Positions 1 through 26,254 of a stretch of 64,000 bases of DNA are shown here, in pieces; the stretch's first letter is position 1, and each line of letters begins with the position of its first letter. Position numbers and translations under genes: made by a program. This stretch comes from Bacillota bacterium. GTDB lineage: Bacteria > Bacillota > Dehalobacteriia > UBA4068 > UBA4997. The notes under the pieces were generated by a model. The model did no database searches, was not told the DNA's origin, and saw nothing but the letters and a program-made list of their open reading frames with translations. Location: positions 62,001 through 126,000 of the forward strand of contig JAETNY010000007.1 in assembly GCA_021771915.1 (NCBI GenBank), written 5' to 3'.

Positions 1-1092
1 CACGCCCAAATCCACGCCACGGCGCATAGCCGCCGCCTGCGCAATAACCGGCACATATTCCCGGGAGTGGTCGGTGGAGGGCGTAGTCGGGTCGTTTCCG
101 TGGTCAGCCGTAATCAGCAGCAAATCCTGCGGCCGCAAAGCCGGCCAAAGCTGCGGCAGCCAGGCGTCAAAAACCTGTAAGGCAGCCGCATAACCGGCCA
201 CGTCGTTGCGATGCCCAAACTGCATATCAAAATCCACCAGATTGGCCCAAATCAAACCGCTGGAGTGACTGGCCATCGCCGTCAAAATTTTTGTCATACC
301 GTCGGCATTATTTTCCGTAGGATAACTGAAATCAATATGCTGGTCAGCAAAAATATCATGTATTTTGCCAATCGCCACCACCGGCAGGCCAGCCGACTGA
401 ACCGCTTCCAGCAGATTACCGGCCGGCGGCAGCAGTGAAAAATCGCGCCGATTGGCCGTGCGCCGAAAACTGCCCGGCTCACCCACAAACGGACGGGCAA
501 TCACGCGCCCCACGCCGTGCTCACCAACCAGCAAATGGCGCGCCACTGCGCACATCTCATAAAGCTGCGGCAGAGGGATAATCTGCTCATGCGCTGCAAT
601 TTGAAAAACACTGTCCGCAGAGGTATAAACAATCGGCCGCCCCGTGCGCAAATGTTCCTCGCCCAGCTGCTCAATAATTACCGTGCCAGAGGCAGTAATA
701 TTACCCAGCGTGCCGCGGCCAATCTGCTTTTCAAACTCCGCCAGCAAATCAGCCGGAAAACCGTCGGGATAGGTCGGCAACGGCCGCAACAGCGGCGTGC
801 CGGCCAGCTCCCAATGCCCAGCCGTGGTGTCCTTGCCGCAGGAAACCTCCTGCATTTTGCCAAAGGCGCCAGCCTGCGCCAACTCCGCCGGCTTAATCAG
901 TGGCGGCACACCTGACAGCGGCAAAATATTACCCAAGCCTAATCGCTGCAAGTTTGGCAGGTTTAAACCGCCCACAGCTTTGGCAATATTACCCAGCGTA
1001 TTGCTGCCAACATCACCATAAGCCGCCGCGTCTGGCGCTTCGCCAGCACCGACACTGTCCAGCACAATTAAAATCACTCTTTTTTCCGTCAT
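1..1092 (-). CDS. deoB: Phosphopentomutase (DeoB), 3' end cut by window edge
   Basis: Cytoplasmic enzyme interconverting (deoxy)ribose 1-phosphate and 5-phosphate in nucleoside salvage. The 364 visible codons start at ATG 1092 and run off the left edge. The family is about 390-395 residues, so roughly 30 C-terminal residues are missing. Visible family features: N-terminal metal site [16 protein letters not shown], the [10 protein letters not shown] stretch with the phosphorylated Thr, and [18 protein letters not shown] near the C-terminus, with the metal-binding Asp and His residues of the alkaline-phosphatase superfamily. It lies downstream of spo0A on the same strand. A spo0A...deoB neighbourhood is seen in other spore formers. 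Identification is firm; co-transcription with the preceding small gene is not shown. Confidence 0.95.
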
Positions 1093-1194
1093 ATAAATCA
1101 ACCCCCAATGCCTTTGCCTATTCAGTATGGCGCTGTGGCCTGTTTTATATGCTTATTCGTGAAAAATTGCCCATATCCTGCTTTTTATTCGCGT

Positions 1195-1725
1195 TTAATA
1201 TGGCTGAACCGTCGCCTGCTCCCCAAAAATTACCGCTTTCAAGCGCTCCAAAAGCCCCGGCTTATCAACTTCCTCCTCTGTACTTCCTGTACTTTCCGTA
1301 TTCTCTGCATTTATCGTACTTTCCGTACTGTTTGCGCTCTCTGCACTATCCGTGCTCTCTGTGCTTTCAGTATTTTCTGCATTACCGGATTTTTCGGCAT
1401 TTCCGACACTTTCGGCACTATCGGAATTATGGACATTTTCCGTTGGCACAGCGCCGGCCTGTTCATCAGGCGCTGCCGCGGCATTTTTTTCGTTATTCAA
1501 CGGTTGGCTGTCGCCTGGAGCCTGTTCTGGCGGCGCACTCTGCTCCGTTGGCACGCCTGTTTCAGTCTGCACACTTTCTCCCGATGCGAACAGGCTCATC
1601 GCGCCCACGGTTTGCAGGCCGTGATAAATCCCTGGCACCACCACACCCAACAGCAGCAGCAAAGCGCCGCCTTTAAGCAGACGTTTTAATTTGCGTCGCG
1701 GTTTGGTAACAGTTAACATAATCAT
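1195..1725 (-). CDS. Unrecognised membrane-anchored, low-complexity Ser/Thr/Glu/Asn-rich protein
   Basis: 176 residues from ATG 1725, which lies 8 nt after an AGGAGG motif; in-frame TTG 1728 and ATG 1719 are alternatives. A basic start (KPRRKLKRLLKGG) is followed by one hydrophobic segment at about residues 19-36, suggesting a signal anchor with the remainder outside the membrane. Residues about 85-155 are a degenerate repeat of Ser/Ala-Glu-Ser-Thr/Asn units (NAENTESTESTDSAESANS-like), with no predictable fold and a high acidic charge. A short basic-hydrophobic tail (GLLERLKAVIFG) could be an amphipathic helix. I recognise no family. It lies between spo0A, from which a terminator separates it, and deoB. 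A cell-surface or linker role is inference only. Confidence 0.6.
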   Translation of the reverse strand: MIMLTVTKPRRKLKRLLKGGALLLLLGVVVPGIYHGLQTVGAMSLFASGESVQTETGVPTEQSAPPEQAPGDSQPLNNEKNAAAAPDEQAGAVPTENVHNSDSAESVGNAEKSGNAENTESTESTDSAESANSTESTINAENTESTGSTEEEVDKPGLLERLKAVIFGEQATVQPY

Positions 1726-1790
1726 CAAAAATCCCTCCTAAAACCAATTAAAATATCAAATTCAGGCTTTAATAAATATGCTGAAACTAA

Positions 1791-1830
1791 AAAAAAATGA
1801 GCATCACCCAACAGGTTCGCTCATTTTTTT
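1791..1830 (-). terminator. Terminator after spo0A
   Basis: The inverted repeat AAAAAAATGAGC (1791-1802) and GCTCATTTTTTT (1819-1830) flanks a 16-nt loop. On the minus strand the stem is followed by a U-rich tail. It lies 70 nt past the spo0A stop and is nearly symmetric, so it could act in both directions. Confidence 0.8.
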
Positions 1831-1899
1831 ACTATTAAATTGAAAAAAATGCATTTGATAAAACATCGAACTTTTATTCACTATCCCTAAAAAACTTTT

Positions 1900-2682
1900 T
1901 TAAATAACTTTTTCGCCAATACGCAGACGGTCGGCTACCATAGCAATAAATTCACTGTTGGTGGGCTTGCCACGCTCCATATTTACTGTATAGCCAAAGA
2001 ATTTGTTCATCATGTCCACATTGCCCCGGTCCCACGCAAGTTCAATCGCATGGCGGATTGCTCTTTCCACACGGCTGGCCGTTGTATTATACTTCTCCGC
2101 AATCAACGGATAAAGTTCCTTGGTTACAGCGCCCAGCAGGTTCATTTCCTCCACAACCAAAATAATAGCGTCGCGCACATACTGATAGCCCTTAACATGC
2201 GCCGGCACGCCCATCTGCTGGATAACTCTGGTCACTTCAATATCCAAATTGCGCACCATCGGTGAAAAACCTGTGTTGGCCTTAACCGGAGCCGATTTAA
2301 GCGCCAGCAGTCGATTGGTTAAAACCTGAAAGTCAATAGGCTTCATCATGTAATACTTTGCGCCCAATTCAATAGCGCGGCGCATCATATCGTCCTGCAT
2401 TAAACCGGAAAGCACCACAATATCCGGACGCTGTTGTTCCGGCCGTTCATTGATTGCCTCCAGAACACCAAAACCGTCCACCTTCGGCATAACCACGTCT
2501 AAAACAATAATATCCGGTTTCAGTGCGTCCAGCTGCTCCAGCACCTGTTCGCCATTGTTCATAATGCCGCAGACATTTATGTTTTCATGCATATCCCAAA
2601 ATTCTTTCAAGTCCGAACAAAAATTTCTGTTATCGTCCGCCAACATCACATTAATTTTAGTTTTGCCATTTTCGCCCATCAT
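1900..2682 (-). CDS. spo0A: Sporulation master response regulator Spo0A
   Basis: DNA-binding response regulator that commits the cell to sporulation when phosphorylated. 260 residues, matching family length. Receiver domain about 10-130: acidic pair Asp16-Asp17, phospho-acceptor Asp62 in IIVLDVVMP, conserved Lys114 in MMKPID. The C-terminal sigma-dependent activator domain (about 150-260) carries the family hallmark helix [21 protein letters not shown] 2682 follows a GGAAAG motif; a second ATG is directly next to it. It is downstream of spoIVB on the same strand, as in Bacillus and Clostridium, but with a 470-nt gap holding three Spo0A-box-like sites, which suggests autoregulation. Confidence 0.98.
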
Positions 2683-2821
2683 AATTTTCTTTCCTTTCCA
2701 AATGCTACCAGGAGATTAAGCCCTGAAAAGGTTCTTGTTTCATTTTACACCTTATAGGCCTTTAAAGTAGCTTTTACTATAAATTAAAAATATTTTTGAA
2801 GATTAATCTTGTAATAAAGTT

Positions 2822-2828
2822 TTCGACA
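2822..2828 (-). promoter_or_regulatory. 0A box (TGTCGAA) upstream of spo0A
   Basis: Exact TGTCGAA on the minus strand, the established Spo0A recognition heptamer, 140 nt upstream of the spo0A start. One of three in the same orientation in this gap. Confidence 0.6.
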
Positions 2829-2895
2829 ACCCTAAAGACTTTCCTCCACTGGTTATTCGCAAAAATTAGACGTTTTTCGATTATATATTATACAG

Positions 2896-2902
2896 TTCGA
2901 CA
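2896..2902 (-). promoter_or_regulatory. 0A box (TGTCGAA) upstream of spo0A
   Basis: Second exact TGTCGAA on the minus strand, 74 nt upstream of the first and in the same orientation. Confidence 0.6.
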
Positions 2903-2957
2903 CTATTAACAAAAATTTAACAGTATGCCACAAACTTCAACAATATCTTTCCACAGG

Positions 2958-2964
2958 CTCGACA
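2958..2964 (-). promoter_or_regulatory. 0A-box-like site (TGTCGAG)
   Basis: One mismatch to TGTCGAA, 62 nt upstream of the second box and in the same orientation, lying between DnaA-box-like sites. Confidence 0.4.
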
Positions 2965-2979
2965 AAACTTATCAAACTT

Positions 2980-2988
2980 TTATCCACA
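2980..2988 (+). promoter_or_regulatory. DnaA box (TTATCCACA) upstream of spo0A
   Basis: Exact match to the DnaA consensus TTATNCACA. Flanked in the same orientation by TTTTCCACA (2999-3007, one mismatch) and CTTTCCACA (2947-2955, two mismatches). TTATTCGCA lies at 2853-2861 (one mismatch). Confidence 0.45.
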
Positions 2989-3020
2989 TTCCCAAAATTT
3001 TTCCACAACCCCAAATTATC

Positions 3021-3060
3021 AACGGCATTCAACTCCATTCAACGGCGTTCAACAACATTC
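3021..3060. repeat. Four tandem 10-bp repeats
   Basis: The units AACGGCATTC, AACTCCATTC, AACGGCGTTC and AACAACATTC follow each other without gaps (consensus AACnnCATTC). The period equals about one helical turn. They lie in the gap between spoIVB and spo0A. Confidence 0.8.
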
Positions 3061-3152
3061 AGCGGCAGGCGGCATTTGTCTGCATTTTTCAACTATGTAG
3101 ACAGGGCGGCTGCTCTGCCGCAGCCAAACCCTGCCCAAACCGGCAGCGCCGG

Positions 3153-4214
3153 TTAAAGTTCTTTCGCTTCCTCCAACATCCATTCAGCAAAGCAGGCATA
3201 GCCGGAGCTGGCGTCATTCACAAAAACATGCGTAACCGCACCAACCAGCTTGCCGTCCTGAATAATCGGGCTGCCGGACATGCCCTGCACAATACCGCCA
3301 GCCCTGGCCAACAGGCGTTCGTCGGTAATCTTAATCACCATACCCTTGTCCGCAGCATGCTTCTGCGGTGAAACGCGGCTGATTTCTATTTCAAATTCTT
3401 CCAGCGTTTCGCCCTCCAACACGGTCAAAATCGTAGCCGGGCCGGCCTTAACCTCGTCCGCGCCGGCCACCGGCAATAAATCCGGATAAAGTTCATTGCT
3501 GACAGGCTTATCCAACAAACCATAAATACCCAAATCACAATTTTTATTAATCGTACCATTCAGCGCGTCACTGTTAAAAACGCCAACCTTTTCGCCAGGC
3601 TCACCGTCCACGCTGTTTTGAATATATTGCACCTGCGCTGCCAAAACACGACCCAGATTATCGGCGCCGCCCTCGCTGTTATCCTCAACGCGGTGACCCA
3701 GCGCGCCATAAGCGCCCGTGGCCGGGTCATAGAAAGTCAGCGTGCCAATTCCGGCGTTGGCGTCGCGAATATAAAGACCAATGCGCCAGCTGCCGCTTTC
3801 CGCACACAAAGCCGGCTCCACCTTAAGCTTTTTCAAAGCCCCGTCCCGGCGCAGCGTCAACTCAACGCTTTCGCCCTTGCGCCCCAATTCATCAATCAAA
3901 TCGGCAACTTCCTGATTATAGCTAACCTGCTTATCATTAATAGCAATCAACATATCCTCAATCGCCACCCCGGCGTCTTTGGCCGGATAAAGTTCCTGGC
4001 CGTCTGCCGTTTGAACCGGTGTAAAACCAACCACAATCGCGCCCTCGCTTTTCAGCACAATACCAAGAGATTGTCCACCGGCCACCACATCATAGGCTAA
4101 AGAAATTTGTGGTGACAACAGGCCGGTTATCAGCATAGAAAATAATAAAGCTGTAAAAACTAAGCTTGAACGTAAATTCACCACAAAATTTTTGCCAAAA
4201 TTTGCCTTGGACAA
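3153..4214 (-). CDS. spoIVB: Stage IV sporulation serine peptidase SpoIVB
   Basis: Forespore-secreted peptidase of family S55 that triggers pro-sigma-K processing in the mother cell. From TTG 4214 it has 353 residues. This start is chosen because AAAAGGAGGTG ends a few bases before it, inside the longer frame that opens at ATG 4241, and that ATG has no Shine-Dalgarno. One N-terminal hydrophobic segment (LVFTALLFSMLITGLLS) is a signal/anchor. A PDZ domain follows (about 55-130, with GIVLKSEGAIVVGF), then the peptidase domain with GALGHRVED (catalytic His) and QGMSGSPI (catalytic Ser). Upstream neighbour of spo0A as in Bacillus; the usual recN is not adjacent here. Confidence 0.96.
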   Translation of the reverse strand: MSKANFGKNFVVNLRSSLVFTALLFSMLITGLLSPQISLAYDVVAGGQSLGIVLKSEGAIVVGFTPVQTADGQELYPAKDAGVAIEDMLIAINDKQVSYNQEVADLIDELGRKGESVELTLRRDGALKKLKVEPALCAESGSWRIGLYIRDANAGIGTLTFYDPATGAYGALGHRVEDNSEGGADNLGRVLAAQVQYIQNSVDGEPGEKVGVFNSDALNGTINKNCDLGIYGLLDKPVSNELYPDLLPVAGADEVKAGPATILTVLEGETLEEFEIEISRVSPQKHAADKGMVIKITDERLLARAGGIVQGMSGSPIIQDGKLVGAVTHVFVNDASSGYACFAEWMLEEAKEL

Positions 4215-4218
4215 ATTA

Positions 4219-4229
4219 ACACCTCCTTT
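4219..4229 (-). promoter_or_regulatory. Strong ribosome binding site deciding the spoIVB start
   Basis: AAAGGAGGTG on the minus strand directly precedes TTG 4214. It lies inside the longer reading frame, so initiation at ATG 4241 would translate through it. Confidence 0.7.
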
Positions 4230-4387
4230 TGCGTTATCCATGCTTTCATTAATTAATGCATCATTTCAGGCAAACGCTTTTCTACCAAGCGCCTGCTTTT
4301 ATTACGATAACCAAAGCAAGCTGGCTTTATCCTGTGAAAAAAAGCAAGTCGGTTGAAGATTTTCCAAAGCAAATTTTTAAAATTATT

Positions 4388-4422
4388 AAACGCCGCTTCT
4401 TAACAAAGGCAAGGCGGCGTTT
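4388..4422 (-). terminator. Terminator after the hemerythrin-receiver gene
   Basis: AAACGCCGC (4388-4396) and GCGGCGTTT (4414-4422) form a 9-bp perfect stem. It is followed on the minus strand by an AT-rich, U-containing tail, 17 nt past the stop. Confidence 0.8.
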
Positions 4423-4438
4423 ATTTCAGCTAAAAGTT

Positions 4439-5815
4439 TTAAGCCATACCAGACTCATTTCTGGTAATAAAAAAGTCGTCAATTTTTTTCTTAATTTCGT
4501 CCGGCTTCAAATATTTCAACAAATAGCCGGCCGGTTTCAACACCATAACTTTACGCACACTTTCCGGGTCGCTGCGGCCGGTCAGGAAAACAACCGGAAT
4601 ATCAGCAAAGTGTTGGTCAGAGCGCAACATGGCCAATGTCTGCTGACCATCGCAAACCGGCATTTCATAATCCAACAAAATTAAATTCGGCCGATTAAGA
4701 GTAATAGCCCGAATTGCCGCCAGACCGGAATCCACCATCGACACATCATAATCTTCTTCCAAAAGCTTTTTCATGCTTTGCCGTACCGTTAAAGAGTCGT
4801 CAACAATCAGCACCTTTAACCGGGAATCGTCGCTATCCTGTGTTTTATTACGACGCATAAGATATTGCTCAACCTTGTCCATAGCGTATTCTTCTTCCAA
4901 AGGCTCGCCAACACCCTGTTCCAAAAGATGCGGCGAGATTACGCAATATGCAAAATAGCCGGCGCCGCCAGTGTTAAACAACAAACTGACCTGTAATTTC
5001 TCCTTTTCCAACAGCTTCTGGAAGCGGTCATAAGAAAGTAAATTTTCTTCCTTAAGTTCATAGCCGTCCATAGACGGAAAATGTTCCATAACTCTTCCCA
5101 CAAACTGCCGGGCGGTGTGTCGGGCAGCATTAACCAACATGCTGTCCAGTTTATTGGTTTTAATCCCCAAAACCTGACCCACCGTGTTAATCAATAATTT
5201 TTCTTCAAAAACCAAAATAACTTCCAGTATCTTATCATCACGGCCGTTGCCATAAACCAGACGATAATAAACGCCGCGGCCAAATTTTTCACCATTATAA
5301 GCGTCGCTTATCATTTGTGATTCCAGCTTAAACATATCAAAAACCAACTGAACAATTACTTTGCGCATGGCCGTAATTTCTTCACTTGGCAGTAAATTTT
5401 CCCATTTTCTGGGGTGTTTATCAACAATGGCTAAATCTTCAGTTTTAGTATGGCCAATCAGCCAGCCAGCGCATACGCCGAGAAAATGCTCCACAGCGCT
5501 GTCAGAATATTCGGTACGTTCCAATTCCTGTTCAAGCGCCGGCAATGTATGCTCCTGAAAACTTTTATGTATACGCCTGTGCTGTTCATACCCAGCATAA
5601 CCGATGGATTTCATGTAGGCTTCTTCTTCCGCAAAATGCTTCACCATATGCCCTTTGAAGAATTTAATACCCTCCTGACAAATCCACTCATTGTCCTTTT
5701 CTTCTTCTTTAAAATTAAAAAGTTTGTTGATAATCTTAAAAAGGCGCTGATGTTCTTTATCAATAATGTCCACACCAATATTAAAATCATCACGCCATAT
5801 CAACTGGGCGTCCAT
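4439..5815 (-). CDS. Bacteriohemerythrin / CheX-like / receiver three-domain protein
   Basis: 458 residues from ATG 5815 behind AAAGGAGG. Residues 1-130 are a hemerythrin domain with all seven diiron ligands in the expected places: His22, His60, Glu64, His79, His83, His122, Asp127. It should therefore bind O2 or a related ligand. Residues about 150-305 resemble the CheX/CheC phosphatase fold (LDSMLVNAARHTARQF) but lack the usual Glu-x-x-Asn catalytic pair; this match is tentative. Residues about 333-455 are a receiver domain with DD after LIV, phospho-acceptor Asp382 in LILLDYEMP and a C-terminal Lys-Pro. There is no output DNA-binding domain. It sits upstream of spoIVB-spo0A on the same strand. 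A cytoplasmic oxygen/redox-linked phosphosignalling role is inferred; the partner kinase is unknown. Confidence 0.85.
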   Translation of the reverse strand: MDAQLIWRDDFNIGVDIIDKEHQRLFKIINKLFNFKEEEKDNEWICQEGIKFFKGHMVKHFAEEEAYMKSIGYAGYEQHRRIHKSFQEHTLPALEQELERTEYSDSAVEHFLGVCAGWLIGHTKTEDLAIVDKHPRKWENLLPSEEITAMRKVIVQLVFDMFKLESQMISDAYNGEKFGRGVYYRLVYGNGRDDKILEVILVFEEKLLINTVGQVLGIKTNKLDSMLVNAARHTARQFVGRVMEHFPSMDGYELKEENLLSYDRFQKLLEKEKLQVSLLFNTGGAGYFAYCVISPHLLEQGVGEPLEEEYAMDKVEQYLMRRNKTQDSDDSRLKVLIVDDSLTVRQSMKKLLEEDYDVSMVDSGLAAIRAITLNRPNLILLDYEMPVCDGQQTLAMLRSDQHFADIPVVFLTGRSDPESVRKVMVLKPAGYLLKYLKPDEIKKKIDDFFITRNESGMA

Positions 5816-5863
5816 ATAAAAGCCTCCTTTATTAGGGTTAAAATAATAATCATTCTTAATTTA

Positions 5864-5893
5864 ATTATACAATATATTATGCGGTAAAAGCAA
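5864..5893 (-). promoter_or_regulatory. Sigma-A-like promoter of the hemerythrin-receiver gene
   Basis: Minus strand TTGCTT, 18 nt, TATAAT, ending 49 nt before the start codon. A TGTAACAAATT element lies just upstream of the -35. Confidence 0.5.
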
Positions 5894-5898
5894 TATCA

Positions 5899-5946
5899 TT
5901 GTAACAAATTTATAAAAAACCATACAATGCTTCTCTGTTACAAATT
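5899..5946 (-). promoter_or_regulatory. Pair of TGTWACAAATT operator-like repeats
   Basis: TGTAACAAATT (5900-5910) and TGTTACAAATT (5936-5946) on the plus strand differ at one base and lie 36 bp apart, directly upstream of the promoter at 5864-5893. The core TTGTAACAA is near-palindromic. The binding protein is unknown. Confidence 0.35.
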
Positions 5947-6368
5947 CACTATAATTTGGGGAAAACCGTAAAAAATAAGAAAAAAGATTTAGAAAAAAAA
6001 AAAACTCTTGATACTGCCAGCAATCTCCAACAAAATAATTTTTTAAACAAAAGTGTAACATATAATTTAGGCAATATACCTAAAATATAAATAAAAAATA
6101 TACATCATTCTGCCGCAATTTTATAATCCGCTTTCTTGAATTTTAACACTCTTTCTCTGTTTGGCCAATTCCTTTAACAAACAGCGCACCATATTTTTCA
6201 CAGGTTCCAAATCCTGTTTAGGCGCATTATTATTATTCAAAATTTTTGCAATATTCATACAGACTATCTATATTTAAATAAGGAAAGAAAAGGTTAAACC
6301 AGACCACGCCAGCCTGTTTATATTTTCAGTCTGCGCTTAAAAAAATGAGTATAATTTGCAATTTGCAC
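5947..6368. other. AT-rich intergenic stretch with one possible small ORF
   Basis: Very AT-rich spacer between the divergent hemerythrin-receiver gene and the SulP gene. Apart from a 45-codon minus-strand ORF (6121-6258) I see no gene or stable RNA. An A12 tract lies near 5993-6004. Confidence 0.5.
6121..6258 (-). CDS. Possible small ORF, 45 residues
   Basis: Begins ATG and encodes MNIAKILNNNNAPKQDLEPV followed by a basic, helix-favouring stretch (CLLKELAKQRKSVKIQ). No Shine-Dalgarno is visible. It is about the size of Spo0E-like phosphatases but lacks their SQELD signature, so I do not assign it to that family. It may be chance. Confidence 0.2.
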   Translation of the reverse strand: MNIAKILNNNNAPKQDLEPVKNMVRCLLKELAKQRKSVKIQESGL

Positions 6369-6397
6369 TTGAAATATCTCTTTTTGGCGAGTATAAT
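6369..6397 (+). promoter_or_regulatory. Sigma-A promoter of the SulP gene
   Basis: TTGAAA (6369-6374), 17 nt, TATAAT (6392-6397). The leader contains a small hairpin, GTGCC/GGCAC (6406-6423), just before the ribosome binding site. Confidence 0.75.
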
Positions 6398-6442
6398 TAT
6401 AAATTGTGCCTGAAAAAAGGCACAGCAAGGAGAGATATTACA

Positions 6443-8089
6443 ATGAAAGAACTAACACCACAGCTAATCCATTCCCTAAAGCATTATTCTCGAGAAACCT
6501 TTATCAAAGATTTAATTTCCGGTCTGATTGTGGCCATAATTGCCCTGCCCCTGTCTATCGCGCTGGCGCTGGCCTCTGGCGTCGCCCCGGAACAGGGCTT
6601 ATATACCGCTATTGTCGCCGGTTTTGTCATCTCCGCCCTGGGCGGCAGCAAGGTACAAATTGCCGGCCCCACCGCCGCATTTGCCACCATTGTAGCCGGT
6701 ATCGTTGCCAAACACGGCATGGAGGGTCTGGCCACCGCCACAATTCTGGCCGGTATAATGCTGGTTTTAATGGGCTTGCTGCGCATGGGCAGCATGATTA
6801 AATTCATACCCTATACCATCACCGTCGGCTTTACGGCCGGCATTGCCATAACTATCATTATCGGCCAGCTGAAAGATTTTTTTGGCCTGACGTTTACGCA
6901 ATCCCCCGTGGAAACCATGTGGAAGCTGGAGGAAACTGCACGTTGTATCAACACCCTGAACCCGGCGGCTTTAGGCGTTGGCTGTCTGGCTCTGGCCATA
7001 CTTTTTTTCTGGCCGAAATTTTTCAAAAAAGTGCCGTCCTCGCTCATTGCCGTGCTGGTAACAGCCGCCGCCGTCAAATTGCTGAATTTACCCGTCAACA
7101 CCATCGGTGATTTATACACCATTTCCAGTTCACTGCCGCATTTCGCCATACCCGATATGTCATATGAAACAGTTGCGGCCATACTGCCGGATACATTTAC
7201 TATCGCCGTGCTGGCAGCTATTGAATCCCTGTTATCCGCCGTAGTGGCTGATGAGATGATTGGCACCCGGCATAATTCCAACATGGAACTGGTGGCACAA
7301 GGCGTTGGCAACACAGCCTCCGCTTTCTTTGGCGGTATCCCGGCCACCGGCGCCATTGCCCGAACCGCCGCCAACATCAAAAACGGCGGCAGTTCTCCAA
7401 TCGCCGGTATGGTACATGCTTTGATACTGCTGTTGGTATTAGTTCTGCTGATGCCTTACGCCGCACTTATTCCCATGCCATGCATTGCCGCCATTCTGTT
7501 CCAGGTGGCCTACAACATGAGCGGCTGGCAAACCGTAATACAGGTTATCAAACATTCGCCCATGAGCGACGCCGCAGTGTTGGTGGTTACTTTCCTGCTC
7601 ACCGTAATGTTTGACCTGGTTGTTGCAATCGTGGTTGGCCTGTCTTTGGCCTGTCTGCTGTTTATGAAGCGTATGGCCGATGTAACCGAAGTCAAGGAGT
7701 GGGAATATATTGAGGATACCGGCGACGACCAGGGCCGCATGAAGCCCGTGCCGTCCCATGTTATGGTTTATGAACTCACCGGTCCCATCTTTTTTGGCGC
7801 AGCTGATAAAATTCCGCACATTGAGCGCAACACCGGCCGCCGGGTGCTTATTCTGCGTATGCGCTCCGTGCCGGCCATGGATATCACCGCCATCAACAGC
7901 CTGCACCGCCTTTATGACGAATGTAAAAGCAAGGGTATCCAAATGTTGTTCTCCCATGTAAATGAACAGCCCATGTCCGTTTTCCAGAAATCCGGCATGT
8001 ATGATTTGGTTGGTAAGGAAAACTTTTTGCCCAACATTGACGCGGCCATAAACCGTGCAACCCAAATGACTGCTGGCAGCGCCGCCTGA
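6443..8089 (+). CDS. SulP-family anion permease with STAS domain
   Basis: 548 residues from ATG 6443, chosen because AAGGAGAG precedes it; the frame extends 29 codons upstream without such a site. Residues about 15-420 hold 10-12 hydrophobic segments of the SLC26/SulP fold (DLISGLIVAIIALPLSIALA near the start, then ALASGVAPEQGLYTA). Residues about 435-545 are a cytoplasmic STAS domain (YELTGPIFFGAADKI, VLILRMRSVPAMDIT). Family members move sulfate, bicarbonate, dicarboxylates or other anions; the substrate cannot be read from sequence. It is a single-gene unit with its own promoter and a strong terminator. Confidence 0.93.
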   Translation: MKELTPQLIHSLKHYSRETFIKDLISGLIVAIIALPLSIALALASGVAPEQGLYTAIVAGFVISALGGSKVQIAGPTAAFATIVAGIVAKHGMEGLATATILAGIMLVLMGLLRMGSMIKFIPYTITVGFTAGIAITIIIGQLKDFFGLTFTQSPVETMWKLEETARCINTLNPAALGVGCLALAILFFWPKFFKKVPSSLIAVLVTAAAVKLLNLPVNTIGDLYTISSSLPHFAIPDMSYETVAAILPDTFTIAVLAAIESLLSAVVADEMIGTRHNSNMELVAQGVGNTASAFFGGIPATGAIARTAANIKNGGSSPIAGMVHALILLLVLVLLMPYAALIPMPCIAAILFQVAYNMSGWQTVIQVIKHSPMSDAAVLVVTFLLTVMFDLVVAIVVGLSLACLLFMKRMADVTEVKEWEYIEDTGDDQGRMKPVPSHVMVYELTGPIFFGAADKIPHIERNTGRRVLILRMRSVPAMDITAINSLHRLYDECKSKGIQMLFSHVNEQPMSVFQKSGMYDLVGKENFLPNIDAAINRATQMTAGSAA

Positions 8090-8122
8090 GCGGACTGCCA
8101 GCCATACAACAATTATTCATAC

Positions 8123-8170
8123 AAAAAACCTGTCTATTCTAAATTAATGTTCAGAATAGACAGGTTTTTT
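8123..8170. terminator. Bidirectional terminator between the SulP gene and tRNA-Pro
   Basis: An 18-bp stem, AAAAAACCTGTCTATTCT (8123-8140) with AGAATAGACAGGTTTTTT (8153-8170), around a 12-nt loop. It ends the plus-strand SulP transcript and lies directly downstream of the minus-strand tRNA. Confidence 0.92.
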
Positions 8171-8171
8171 C

Positions 8172-8249
8172 TGGTCGGAGCGACACGACTTGAACGTGCG
8201 GCCTCTACCACCCCAAGGTAGCGCTCTAGCCAAACTGAGCTACGCCCCG
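8172..8249 (-). tRNA. tRNA-Pro (GGG)
   Basis: Cloverleaf on the minus strand: acceptor CGGGGCG/CGCTCCG with one G-U pair, anticodon stem CTACC/GGTAG with loop TTGGGGT giving anticodon GGG, T loop TTCAAGT, and encoded CCA (8172-8174). Confidence 0.95.
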
Positions 8250-8262
8250 TTGCACTTGTAAT

Positions 8263-8291
8263 ATTATATTACCAGCGCCGCAATTTGTCAA
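8263..8291 (-). promoter_or_regulatory. Promoter of tRNA-Pro
   Basis: Minus strand TTGACA, 17 nt, TATAAT: exact consensus hexamers ending 13 nt before the tRNA 5' end. Confidence 0.88.
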
Positions 8292-8380
8292 GCTTTTTTG
8301 CCAAAAATGCGAAAAAAAGCAAAATCTATGCGCCAAAAACAGTTTAGAAAAAATATCCGCAAAAAATTTCCAAAAAACTC

Positions 8381-8409
8381 TTGCAACTACGTTAATTTTC
8401 TGCTAAAAT
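8381..8409 (+). promoter_or_regulatory. Promoter of rpmB
   Basis: TTGCAA (8381-8386), 17 nt, TAAAAT (8404-8409), followed by a leader of about 70 nt with a small CTCCTTTTAGGAG hairpin. Confidence 0.7.
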
Positions 8410-8485
8410 AGTATAGGTTATTCTCCTTTTAGGAGATTAATTAATTTGGAGGGTTTATTATTGCCTGGAAAAAGGAGGTGGAACT

Positions 8486-8674
8486 ATGGCAAAATGCGAA
8501 GTCTGCGGCAAAACTATGCAAACCGGTATGAAGGTAAGCCACTCACATATCCGCACAAAACGCAAATGGAAACCCAACCTGCAAAGGGTTAAGGTTGTGG
8601 TGGGCGGCACTCCGCAGAGAATTAATGTCTGCACCCGCTGCCTGCGTTCCGGCAAAGTTCAGAGGGCAATTTAA
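8486..8674 (+). CDS. rpmB: Large ribosomal subunit protein bL28
   Basis: 62 residues, full family length, starting at ATG 8486 behind AAAGGAGGTGG. Begins MAKCEVCGK and ends with CTRCLRSGK. The two CxxC pairs mark the zinc-binding form of bL28. Typical RTKRKWKPNLQ core. It assembles into the 50S subunit. Monocistronic, with its own promoter and terminator. Confidence 0.98.
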   Translation: MAKCEVCGKTMQTGMKVSHSHIRTKRKWKPNLQRVKVVVGGTPQRINVCTRCLRSGKVQRAI

Positions 8675-8700
8675 TATTATGCCGTATATAAAAAATAAAG

Positions 8701-8738
8701 AAAGGTTAAATTGTATTCCCACAATTTAATCTTTTTTT
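8701..8738 (+). terminator. Terminator of rpmB
   Basis: AGGTTAAATTGT and ACAATTTAATCT form a 12-bp stem with one G-U pair around a 6-nt loop, followed by TTTTTTT. Confidence 0.88.
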
Positions 8739-8763
8739 ATGTCCTTAAATTCCGCCAAAACTC

Positions 8764-8792
8764 TTGACTTGATATTTCAGCTATGATAAAAT
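8764..8792 (+). promoter_or_regulatory. Promoter of the polyamine operon
   Basis: TTGACT (8764-8769), 17 nt, TAAAAT (8787-8792), about 245 nt upstream of speD. It implies a long untranslated leader. Confidence 0.75.
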
Positions 8793-9035
8793 GCAAGATA
8801 GGAAACAGGCAAATATTTTTGCGAAAAAAACCGGGCGGTCCGCACCAAACTTGTGAAACGGTAAATAAGAGTAGTAAAAGTAAAATATTTGCTATATAGA
8901 CTCTGAAATTGCAAACAACCAAAAACGCAAGTGGCTCCGTTTGGCTTTGTGTTATTGGTTGTTTGTTTGTCTAAACACTTAACCATATATCCCAATTCTT
9001 TCCTTAATTATAACTCTGTAAAGGCGGTTTGTGTT
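8793..9035 (+). promoter_or_regulatory. Long structured 5' leader of the polyamine operon
   Basis: About 240 nt between promoter and speD. The clearest element is an 11-bp perfect stem, CAAACAACCAA (8912-8922) with TTGGTTGTTTG (8955-8965). It encloses a second helix, roughly ACGCAAG with CTTTGTGT. A GC-rich segment near 8828-8866 can form ACCG/CGGT and GCGG/CCGC pairings. There is no intrinsic terminator before speD. I recognise none of the known S-adenosylmethionine or polyamine-linked riboswitches here. A cis-regulatory RNA is plausible but unproven. Confidence 0.4.
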
Positions 9036-9797
9036 ATGCAACAGGAAAAAATCAAGCTATATGGCTTTAACAATCTCACCAAATCATTAAGCTTCAATAT
9101 TTATGACGTTTGCTATGCCAAAACTCAGCGCGAGCAAAAAGATTATATTGCTTATATTGACAAGCAGTACAACTCAGAGCGTCTGACCAGTATTCTGACT
9201 AACGTGGCAGAGATGATTGGCGCTAAAGTTTTGCATATTTCCAGTCAGGACTATGAACCGCAGGGAGCCAGCGTTACCCTACTGATTGCAGAAAGTTCCA
9301 TGGTGCCCGTCAGCGATACCACCGTGGCGCATCTGGATAAAAGCCATGTCACCGTGCATACCTATCCGGAATATCACCCGGAAACATGTCTGGCCACCTT
9401 TCGGGTGGATATCGACGTGGCAACCTGCGGCGAGATTACGCCGCTTTCCACGCTGGATTATCTGATTGGCAGCTTTGATTCCGATATCATCACCATGGAT
9501 TACCGCGTGCGCGGCTTCACCCGTGATTTACAGGGACGCAAACTGTTCATCGACCACTATATCAACTCTATTCAAAATTATATCAATGAACAAACCCTGC
9601 GCCGCTATGACGCTGTGGATATCAATATTTATGAGGCCAATATCTTCCATACCAAAATGCTGATTAAGGATATTGACCTGCAAAATTATCTTTTTAACGC
9701 CGACGTTTATGAACTGCCACCCAAAACCCGGTTGGAAATTACCGACAGCCTGCGGCAGGAAATGATAGAAATTTTTTCGGGACGCAACATTTATTAA
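9036..9797 (+). CDS. speD: S-adenosylmethionine decarboxylase proenzyme, E. coli (SpeD class 1A) type
   Basis: Makes decarboxylated S-adenosylmethionine, the aminopropyl donor for spermidine synthase. 253 residues from ATG 9036. The longer frame opening at 8931 runs through the leader and has no family support. Self-cleavage site before the Ser of [13 protein letters not shown], which becomes the pyruvoyl cofactor. Further matches to the long proteobacterial-type enzyme are [31 protein letters not shown] and [11 protein letters not shown]. First gene of the six-gene operon. The last codons and stop lie in a 25-bp sequence repeated just before speA. Confidence 0.96.
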
Positions 9798-9798
9798 A
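9774..9798 (+). repeat. 25-bp direct repeat, copy 1 (end of speD)
   Basis: From TTTTCGGGACGC to TTATTAAA, covering the final codons and stop of speD. Identical to 9853-9877. Confidence 0.95.
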
Positions 9799-9852
9799 TT
9801 CAAATATAACCTTAATTGCCCGATTACTTTTGCAATGACAGTTTTAAAAAAA

Positions 9853-9877
9853 TTTTCGGGACGCAACATTTATTAAA
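9853..9877 (+). repeat. 25-bp direct repeat, copy 2 (before speA)
   Basis: Exact copy of 9774-9798, displaced by 79 bp. It recreates the speD tail in the intergenic region and its last bases run into the speA ribosome binding site. Confidence 0.95.
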
Positions 9878-9882
9878 GGGGG
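9875..9882 (+). promoter_or_regulatory. Ribosome binding site pointing to an ACG start for speA
   Basis: AAAGGGGG, 8 nt before ACG 9891. No comparable site precedes ATG 9951. Confidence 0.55.
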
Positions 9883-9890
9883 TATAAACC

Positions 9891-11342
9891 ACGAAACAGT
9901 CCAGTCAGAATGAAGCGCCGATTTATCAGGCACTGCAAAATTTTCAAAAAATGCGTGTAGTCCCCTTTGACGTGCCCGGCCACAAAAGAGGGCGCGGCAA
10001 CCCGGAGTTGACCGCCTTTCTGGGCGAGCAATGCGTCAATCTGGACGTTAACTCCATGAAGCCGCTGGACAACCTCTGCCACCCGGTTTCCGTCATCAAA
10101 CGCGCCGAAGAACTGGCAGCCGAAGCCTTTGGTGCAGCGGCCGCCTTTTTAATGATTGGCGGCACCACCTCTGCCGTGCAAAGCATGATTTTAACCGTCT
10201 GCAAGCAGGGCGACCAGATTATTCTGCCGCGCAACGTCCACCGCAGCGTATTAAACGCCATGGTGCTTTGCGGCGCGCGCCCGGTTTACGTTAACCCAGA
10301 CGTCAATCCAGATTTGGGCATTGCGCTGGGTATGCGCCCGGAACAAGTTGAAGCCGCTATTTTAGCCAACCCCAAGGCCAAGGCCGTGCTGATTAATAAC
10401 CCCACATACTATGGCGTATGTTCTGATATTAAAGCCATTGTGGATTTGGCGCACCGCCACAATATGCTGGCGCTGGCTGATGAAGCGCACGGCACGCATT
10501 TTTATTTTGGCGATAATCTGCCCCCGGCCGCCATGCATGTGGGCGCGGATATGGCCGCCGTCAGCATGCATAAATCCGGCGGCAGTCTGACGCAAAGCTC
10601 TTTTCTGCTGCTGGGGCCAAATATCAGCCCCGGTTATTGCCGCCAGATTATCAATCTGACCCAGACCACCAGCGCCTCCTATCTGTTGCTCTCCAGTCTG
10701 GATATTTCCCGGCGCAAGCTGGCGCTGGAGGGACGGCAAATTTTTGCCCAGGTATTGAAGCTGGCCGAATACGCCCGGGAGGAAATCAACAGTATCGGCG
10801 ATTATTGGGCGTTTGGCGCAGAGTTGGTGCAAAGCGGCACCGCCGTGGCCAATTTTGACCGCACCAAGCTTTCCGTCAACACGCTTAATGTAGGTCTGGC
10901 CGGCATCGAGGTTTACGATATTCTGCGCGATGAGTATGATATTCAAATTGAGTTCGGCGATTTAGGCAATATTCTGGCCTATATTTCGATTGGCGACCGT
11001 CAGCGAGATATTGAACGGCTGGTCAGCGCACTGGCTGAAATCCGCCGCCGTTATAAACGTGATAAAAGCGGACTGCTCACCCAGGAATACATCGAACCGC
11101 AGGTGGAATTAACACCGCAGCAGGCGTTTTACGCCCCCAAGGAGTCTTTGCCTCTGGCGCAGACGCGCGGCCGTATTTGCAGCGAATTTGTGATGTGTTA
11201 TCCGCCCGGCATACCGATTGTGGCGCCGGGCGAGAAAATCACCGAACAGATTTTAGCTTATATCAGCTACGCCAAGCAAAAAGGCTCCTCGCTAACCGGC
11301 CCAGAGGACGCGCAGATTGAATACCTGAATGTTATAAAATAG
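9891..11342 (+). CDS. speA: Arginine decarboxylase, fold-type I (SpeA, Orn/Lys/Arg family)
   Basis: PLP enzyme turning arginine into agmatine. The first in-frame ATG (9951) gives 463 residues starting MRVVPFDVPGHK. The frame stays open back to 9888, and the upstream codons read QSSQNEAPIYQALQNFQK. This aligns with SSSNQTPLIQAIEEYQAK, the N-terminus of the paralogue at 52197, and the extended length of 483 fits the family. A good ribosome binding site stands 8 nt before ACG 9891, so initiation at ACG (or a mutated ATG) is my preferred reading; ATG 9951 is the conventional alternative. Motifs: VPGHK, ADEAHGTH, and SMHKSGGSLTQ with the Schiff-base Lys. Presence of speB next to it favours arginine over lysine or ornithine as substrate. 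Confidence 0.88.
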   Translation, partial: TKQSSQNEAPIYQALQNFQKMRVVPFDVPGHKRGRGNPELTAFLGEQCVNLDVNSMKPLDNLCHPVSVIKRAEELAAEAFGAAAAFLMIGGTTSAVQSMILTVCKQGDQIILPRNVHRSVLNAMVLCGARPVYVNPDVNPDLGIALGMRPEQVEAAILANPKAKAVLINNPTYYGVCSDIKAIVDLAHRHNMLALADEAHGTHFYFGDNLPPAAMHVGADMAAVSMHKSGGSLTQSSFLLLGPNISPGYCRQIINLTQTTSASYLLLSSLDISRRKLALEGRQIFAQVLKLAEYAREEINSIGDYWAFGAELVQSGTAVANFDRTKLSVNTLNVGLAGIEVYDILRDEYDIQIEFGDLGNILAYISIGDRQRDIERLVSALAEIRRRYKRDKSGLLTQEYIEPQVELTPQQAFYAPKESLPLAQTRGRICSEFVMCYPPGIPIVAPGEKITEQILAYISYAKQKGSSLTGPEDAQIEYLNVIK

Positions 11343-25424: not shown

Positions 25425-25943
25425 TTATTCCGGCTGCAATAAACCGTAATTATCGTCTTTGCGTTTATAAACGATATTGATTTCCTCAGTTTCAGCGTTA
25501 ACAAAAGCAAAAAAGCTATGCCCCAAAAGTTCCATCTGACTGATAGCCTCGTCAATATCCAAAGGCTTTTTATCAAAATGCTTCGTGCGTACAAGCTTCT
25601 GTTCATTCGGCAGCGCGTCCAGTTCCTGCATGGAAGCCTTTTGAGCCTCCTTGCGGAAACGCTTCTCCAAACGGGTTTTATGCTTGCGCACCTGGCGCTC
25701 CAACTTGTCTACAGCCTGGTCAATGCAAACGTACATATCCGTCCCGGAAACCTCACTGCGCAGAATTACACCGTCCACATAGATGGTAACCTCCACACTG
25801 TGCGTATCTTTAACAACATCATGCAAAACGGATACATCATCTACGCCGCCCAGCATTTTGTCAAATTTCCGCAGGCGTTTTTCCGCATAATCGCGCATGG
25901 CCTGGGTAACATCATTTTTTCTGGACCTAACATTAATGTTCAT
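25425..25943 (-). CDS. hpf: Long-form ribosome hibernation promoting factor
   Basis: 172 residues from ATG 25943 behind GGGAGGT; the frame opens 18 codons earlier without a site. N-terminal HPF/RaiA domain (about 1-100: MNINVRSRKNDVTQAMRDY, KFDKMLGG) and C-terminal dimerisation domain (about 115-172: RTKHFDKKPLDIDEAISQ, FFAFVNAETEEINIVYKRKD). The two-domain form joins 70S ribosomes into 100S dimers in stationary phase. The upstream spacer carries a DnaA-box-like cluster. Confidence 0.95.
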   Translation of the reverse strand: MNINVRSRKNDVTQAMRDYAEKRLRKFDKMLGGVDDVSVLHDVVKDTHSVEVTIYVDGVILRSEVSGTDMYVCIDQAVDKLERQVRKHKTRLEKRFRKEAQKASMQELDALPNEQKLVRTKHFDKKPLDIDEAISQMELLGHSFFAFVNAETEEINIVYKRKDDNYGLLQPE

Positions 25944-26125
25944 AAAACGACCTCCCTTGTTACTTAATTCAGCCGATAATTTTAAGGCTTTGCCCAAATC
26001 TATCCGCTATATTATTAATTATATTTTAAGCGGCAAATTCCTGCTATCTGACGGAAAAGATTTCTATTCGACTTTTTTTTCAATTCCCAACAGGCTCCGG
26101 CATGTTTTACACCACTTTCCCCCAA

Positions 26126-26212
26126 TAATCCACAGGCCTTGCCTGTGGAAAATGTGGAAAAACCTGTTGACAACTGACCACATGCCGTTTTTTCAAGCAT
26201 AAATTATGCACA
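26126..26212. promoter_or_regulatory. Cluster of DnaA-box-like sites with a palindrome
   Basis: Within 87 bp: TAATCCACA (26126-26134, one mismatch to TTATNCACA), two abutting TGTGGAAAA (26144-26152, 26153-26161; each the complement of TTTTCCACA, one mismatch), and an exact TTATGCACA (26204-26212). The first two sit in the 8-bp palindrome CCACAGGC-CTT-GCCTGTGG (26130-26148). Located between hpf and the PstS-like gene. Confidence 0.5.
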
Positions 26213-26254
26213 TAGAGGCAAAGTCTGCCCACAATCGACGTTAAATCGACAAAA

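Follow-up and report, generated by a model that had tools for sequence, protein, structure and literature searches.

A conserved block joining a DnaA box to a 0A box upstream of spo0A in an uncultured Peptococcaceae genus

Does DnaA act directly on spo0A in a lineage that has sporulation genes but no Sda? This question is raised by a window of 64 kb (the whole stretch of DNA that was analysed, 64,000 nucleotides) from a 2.3 Mb draft genome of an uncultured Peptococcaceae genus near Ca. Avidehalobacter. The window carries spoIVB and spo0A on the same strand in their usual order, separated by a spacer of 470 bp (Table 1). The first-pass annotation had proposed that three 0A sites of one orientation, two of them exact, lie in this spacer among an exact DnaA box and three related sites, and that the arrangement would let DnaA influence spo0A. 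All of these sites were recovered at the positions given, the three 0A sites on the spo0A strand, and the exact DnaA box is conserved in the eight aligned sequences. The relatives used for comparison bring the genus sample to nine species, all metagenome assemblies in about four close groups; several are of animal gut origin and one is Ca. Avidehalobacter. Genome-wide motif counts were obtained by pattern searches. An Rfam search of window positions 1-10000 matched no family. Window positions 1195-1728 (minus strand) encode a 177-aa protein with no Pfam match, a membrane-like N-terminus and a repetitive tail rich in Ser, Thr and Glu.

Table 1. Features of the spo0A locus, with positions in the window
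Feature	Sequence	Position	Strand	Remarks
spo0A		1900..2682	-	response regulator; Pfam Spo0A_C (1.2e-44) and Response_reg
Palindrome	AAGATTAATCTT	2799..2810	-	near the expected sigma-H transcript start, just downstream of the -10
Sigma-H promoter	AGGAAAG-N11-GTCGAAA	2821..2845	-	in all nine genus sequences examined
0A box	TGTCGAA	2822-2828	-	exact; coincides with the sigma-H -10
DnaA-box-like site	TTATTCGCA	2853-2861	+	one mismatch
Candidate vegetative sigma-A promoter	TTAATA-18-TATAAT	2880..2909	-	10/12 match in the window
0A box 2	TGTCGAA	2896-2902	-	exact; within the candidate sigma-A promoter
Degenerate third DnaA box	CTTTCCACA	2947-2955	+	two mismatches
Composite block	TGTGGAWAANNNTTTGATAASTTTTGYCGNN	2958..2988	-	DnaA box, TTTGATAA and 0A box
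0A box 1	TGTCGAG	2958-2964	-	one mismatch; part of the 31-bp block
Invariant segment	TTTGATAA	2969..2976	-	inside the block; 8-sequence alignment
Core DnaA box	TTATCCACA	2980-2988	+	perfect match; core box of the block
Second DnaA box	TTTTCCACA	2999-3007	+	one mismatch to TTATNCACA; exact to the wider consensus TTWTNCACA
10-bp repeat, five copies	GTTGAANNNN	3014..3063	-	strand of the 0A boxes; helically phased
spoIVB		3153..4241	-	peptidase S55, PDZ; Pfam Peptidase_S55 (3.9e-75)

The 0A boxes of the spacer clearly exceed chance expectation: exact TGTCGAA occurs twice in the 470 bp against 0.04 expected (P < 0.001, 1000 dinucleotide shuffles), and only three copies are present in the whole window. 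The DnaA boxes by themselves exceed it only modestly, at P about 0.01-0.03; exact TTWTNCACA was seen twice against 0.15 expected (P 0.01, 1000 dinucleotide shuffles). A single DnaA box is weak evidence because TTATNCACA occurs 146 times in the 2.3 Mb genome (47 times for the reversed control). Same-strand pairs of TTWTNCACA at most 30 bp apart are rare, the seven matches in the genome forming five loci, one of which is spo0A. The first-pass annotation had held that equally frequent boxes elsewhere would count against its proposal; this applies in part to single boxes, but it fails for the box pair and for the conserved block described below. Motif spotting in a single window is convincing only with relatives.

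Alignment of the upstream regions revealed a block of 31 bp that reads TGTGGAWAANNNTTTGATAASTTTTGYCG, in which the DnaA box is followed by TTTGATAA and by 0A box 1 at the end. Across the eight aligned sequences, which amount to about four close groups (the window and L061 are nearly identical), 24 of the 31 columns are invariant, while the remaining upstream DNA has 24 invariant columns among 219. The six more distant sequences share 84-90% identity with the window in the block and 33-64% in its surroundings. Identity of the surrounding DNA to the window falls to 33-40%, and much of the DNA between the block and the sigma-H promoter is highly diverged. The block was found in eight of the nine genus genomes, each time ~290-330 bp upstream of spo0A, and, with up to two mismatches allowed, had no match outside the genus among 398 Bacillota genomes sampled. 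It is absent from the ninth member, L065 (= G002), where the gene upstream of spo0A differs, spoIVB is not directly upstream, and the sigma-H promoter and palindrome are kept. In four species the block lies 143 bp from the sigma-H -35 and in the remaining four 163 bp; the 20 bp between these values is near two helical turns. Such fixed spacing would fit a protein-DNA assembly whose alignment with the promoter has to be maintained.

Six of the eight sequences have a perfect TTATCCACA as their core box, and two sister species have TTTTCCACA, so that only the W of TTWTNCACA varies. The core box thus changes only where DnaA tolerates it, which points to DnaA. 0A box 1 reads TGTCGAA or TGCCGAA in most relatives and TGTCGTC in one. 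Two other readings of the block were rejected. It is not a sigma-A promoter, since the alignment shows that the final T required for the -10 is not kept. A conserved small ORF beginning with the block (GTG GAT AAT ...) is scarcely credible: L064, L066 and L067 keep the frame open over 67-79 codons, but in the window, L061 and L068 it meets a stop after 16-18. Substitutions within the block change the encoded amino acids and spare silent sites, and the sequences have no ribosome-binding site in common.

Further DnaA boxes accompany the core box. The second box, 19 bp from it, occupies the same place in the window, L061, L062 and L063. The box at 2947-2955, 33 bp from the core box, is degenerate in the window and an intact TTTTCCACA in L061-L063, so that both spacings are kept in these four species, which carry two or three DnaA boxes inside 61 bp. 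In L064, L066 and L068, a TTTTCCACA lies ~100 bp beyond the core box, and at least two DnaA boxes are present in seven of the eight species with the block. The site at 2853-2861 is present in the window, but it shows no conservation in the alignment of relatives and was dropped as a functional DnaA box. Of the four boxes proposed at the outset, one is therefore conserved genus-wide, two in a subclade (2999-3007, and 2947-2955 despite its degenerate form in the window), and one not at all; it is to this extent that comparison supports direct action of DnaA on spo0A, strongly so at 2980-2988.

These additional boxes bear on a reading in which some other, unnamed regulator binds the entire block and the DnaA box is coincidental. 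The conserved block is far longer than a DnaA box, and its invariance spans TTTGATAA and TTTTG, which are accounted for by neither consensus, that of DnaA or the core one of Spo0A; this favours such a regulator. However, TTWTNCACA would arise by chance in a random 31 bp with a probability of about 0.1% (calculated for equal base frequencies), and additional boxes flank the block in seven of the eight species. We therefore regard this reading as unlikely.

Spo0A itself is another competitor for the core box, since DnaA and 0A box consensus sequences are documented to be similar (PMC5295017). The TGTGGAWAA sites could be degenerate 0A boxes that form, with the three 0A boxes and the GTTGAA array, a single Spo0A autoregulation array in which DnaA is uninvolved. 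TGTGGAA differs from TGTCGAA by one base, every site is on the strand of the 0A boxes, and Spo0A could read TGTGGAAAA. The 10-bp GTTGAA array is peculiar to the spo0A upstream region, and nine of the ten lone boxes found before spo0A in other Bacillota share this orientation. On the other hand, position 4 is G in all orthologous core boxes and never C, whereas the true 0A site of the block keeps its C. Six of the eight core boxes read TGTGGAT, which has two mismatches to the 0A box and is a perfect DnaA box. Since the core box lacks the C of the 0A core and in these six is two bases off the 0A box, DnaA is favoured over Spo0A, and an array of Spo0A sites alone appears improbable. The core box may nevertheless be a dual site read by both proteins. 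The GTTGAA array, which the first-pass annotation did not note, lies directly upstream of the DnaA boxes; four species of the genus have it, in each case before spo0A and nowhere else. As GTTGAA is one base off the 0A core GTCGAA, the repeats may form a weak array of Spo0A sites.

Outside the genus, 107 other spo0A upstream regions of Bacillota contained one TTWTNCACA in ten cases and two in none, which makes the feature specific to this genus. DnaA control of spo0A throughout the Bacillota is unsupported, since the ten regions with a lone box are only slightly more than the 4.4 of shuffles and close to the six of the reversed control.

The remaining spacer elements recall B. subtilis, in which spo0A is transcribed from the promoters Pv and Ps, with three 0A boxes in the interval and a fourth overlapping the -10 of Ps (PMC12090719). 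The present region likewise has several 0A boxes and an upstream candidate sigma-A promoter, and the 0A site at 2822-2828 coincides with the sigma-H -10 as 0A4 does with that of Ps (PMC12090719). In B. subtilis the other boxes lie between the promoters; here 0A box 1 would be upstream of the candidate vegetative promoter and 0A box 2 within it. The placement of that promoter is uncertain, and it is not clearly kept in the alignment of distant species. In addition, the DnaA box is here joined to the outermost 0A box, whereas the scheme of PMC12090719 mentions no DnaA site.

The palindrome downstream of the sigma-H -10 sits in the run TATTACAAGATTAATCTTC, among the best conserved DNA of the spacer, and its AAGATNNATCTT is present in 9/9 genus sequences, including L065. 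It is probably an operator; we know of no regulator that matches AAGATTAATCTT. The predicted RNA fold of the presumed sigma-H leader was as stable as that of shuffled sequences (z 0.04).

The first-pass annotation had also invoked the Bacillus origin, and this analogy proved loose. At oriC of B. subtilis, Spo0A boxes overlap DnaA boxes and Spo0A blocks DnaA (PMC5295017). Spo0A and DnaA sites are close together here too, but they are side by side, and DnaA would act at the spo0A promoter: 0A box 1 and the core box share no bases and are 15 bp apart, and the box at 2947-2955 stops 2 bp short of 0A box 1 without sharing bases. The genome's own origin, in the dnaA-dnaN spacer (L132 3780-4300, G000:C23), contains TTTTGCACA, TTATGCACA and TTTTCCACA, of which TTTTCCACA is followed by the DnaA-trio TATTACTACTACTACC and then by an AT-rich stretch. 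The origins of this genome and of three sister genomes all have TTTTCCACA adjoining the DnaA-trio, and the DnaA retains the DHTTV recognition motif; both points favour DnaA as the reader of the core box.

DnaA-box clusters built on the same motif, a further point in favour of DnaA at the core box, were also observed at other genes. A triplet TGTGGAAAATGTGGAAAACTCTGTGCATAA lies upstream of pepF (oligopeptidase F; L134 5460-5489, G000:C6:75459-75488) and was found in eight of the nine genus genomes with changes almost all at W or N, its placement before pepF having been checked in the genome of the window; one of its boxes varies precisely at N (TTATGCACA/TTATTCACA). A TTTTCCACA triplet is directly upstream of sbcD (L133 6934-6964, G000:C23:88933-88963), also in sister genomes. 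Upstream of hpf (ribosome hibernation factor, about 25425-25997), a DnaA-like cluster at window positions 26124-26212 comprises TAATCCACA, two TTTTCCACA and TTATGCACA, with a 0A-like TGTCGAT near 26248. Given these clusters, the spo0A spacer might be one of several DnaA-binding spacers, at which DnaA would bind only for titration or reactivation, in the manner of datA or DARS, and leave spo0A unaffected. This is very improbable in view of the locked register between the box and the 0A box and the fixed distance to the sigma-H promoter.

Box clusters in gene spacers are shared with the direct DnaA regulon of B. subtilis, in which spo0A is not a listed target (PMC8203912). There, DnaA restrains Spo0A by way of sda (PMC8203912). 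A profile search for Sda (PF08970) was negative in all nine genus genomes and positive in the B. subtilis control. Because Sda is the B. subtilis route and is absent from the genus, a direct link between DnaA and spo0A would reach the same outcome by a shorter path. A literature search joining DnaA boxes with the spo0A promoter found no paper among the sources covered, most subscription papers being outside the search.

Weighing these comparisons, we judge the chances to be evenly balanced that spo0A is controlled directly by DnaA and Spo0A through a module in this region, in which DnaA most likely binds the block and tunes spo0A transcription together with Spo0A. DnaA would occupy the core box, aided by the box at 2999-3007 and, in the sister species, by that at 2947-2955. 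Spo0A~P on 0A box 1 would adjoin DnaA, with its centre 23 bp from the DnaA box. The complex would be placed immediately before the candidate vegetative promoter, with its distance to the sigma-H promoter fixed at 143 or 163 bp. Transcription of spo0A would most likely be lowered while active DnaA is high, just after a replication round starts, and spo0A would be released later. DnaA binding, its cooperation with Spo0A and the repressive sign are what we infer. As in the DnaA-sda-KinA checkpoint of B. subtilis (PMC8203912, PMC5295017), DnaA boxes would couple replication initiation to Spo0A output; unlike that checkpoint, the proposed action is on spo0A DNA itself, in a genus without Sda.

The arrangement suggests that replication may directly control the sporulation decision in this genus, instead of through the Sda protein of Bacillus. 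Somewhat more tentatively, in a lineage with sporulation genes and without Sda, DnaA acting on the spo0A promoter through the composite element may constitute a one-step replication checkpoint. To our knowledge, how clostridia without Sda match sporulation to replication has not been established. A genus-wide, spo0A-specific element with a perfect DnaA box offers a concrete and easily tested candidate for such Sda-less coupling.
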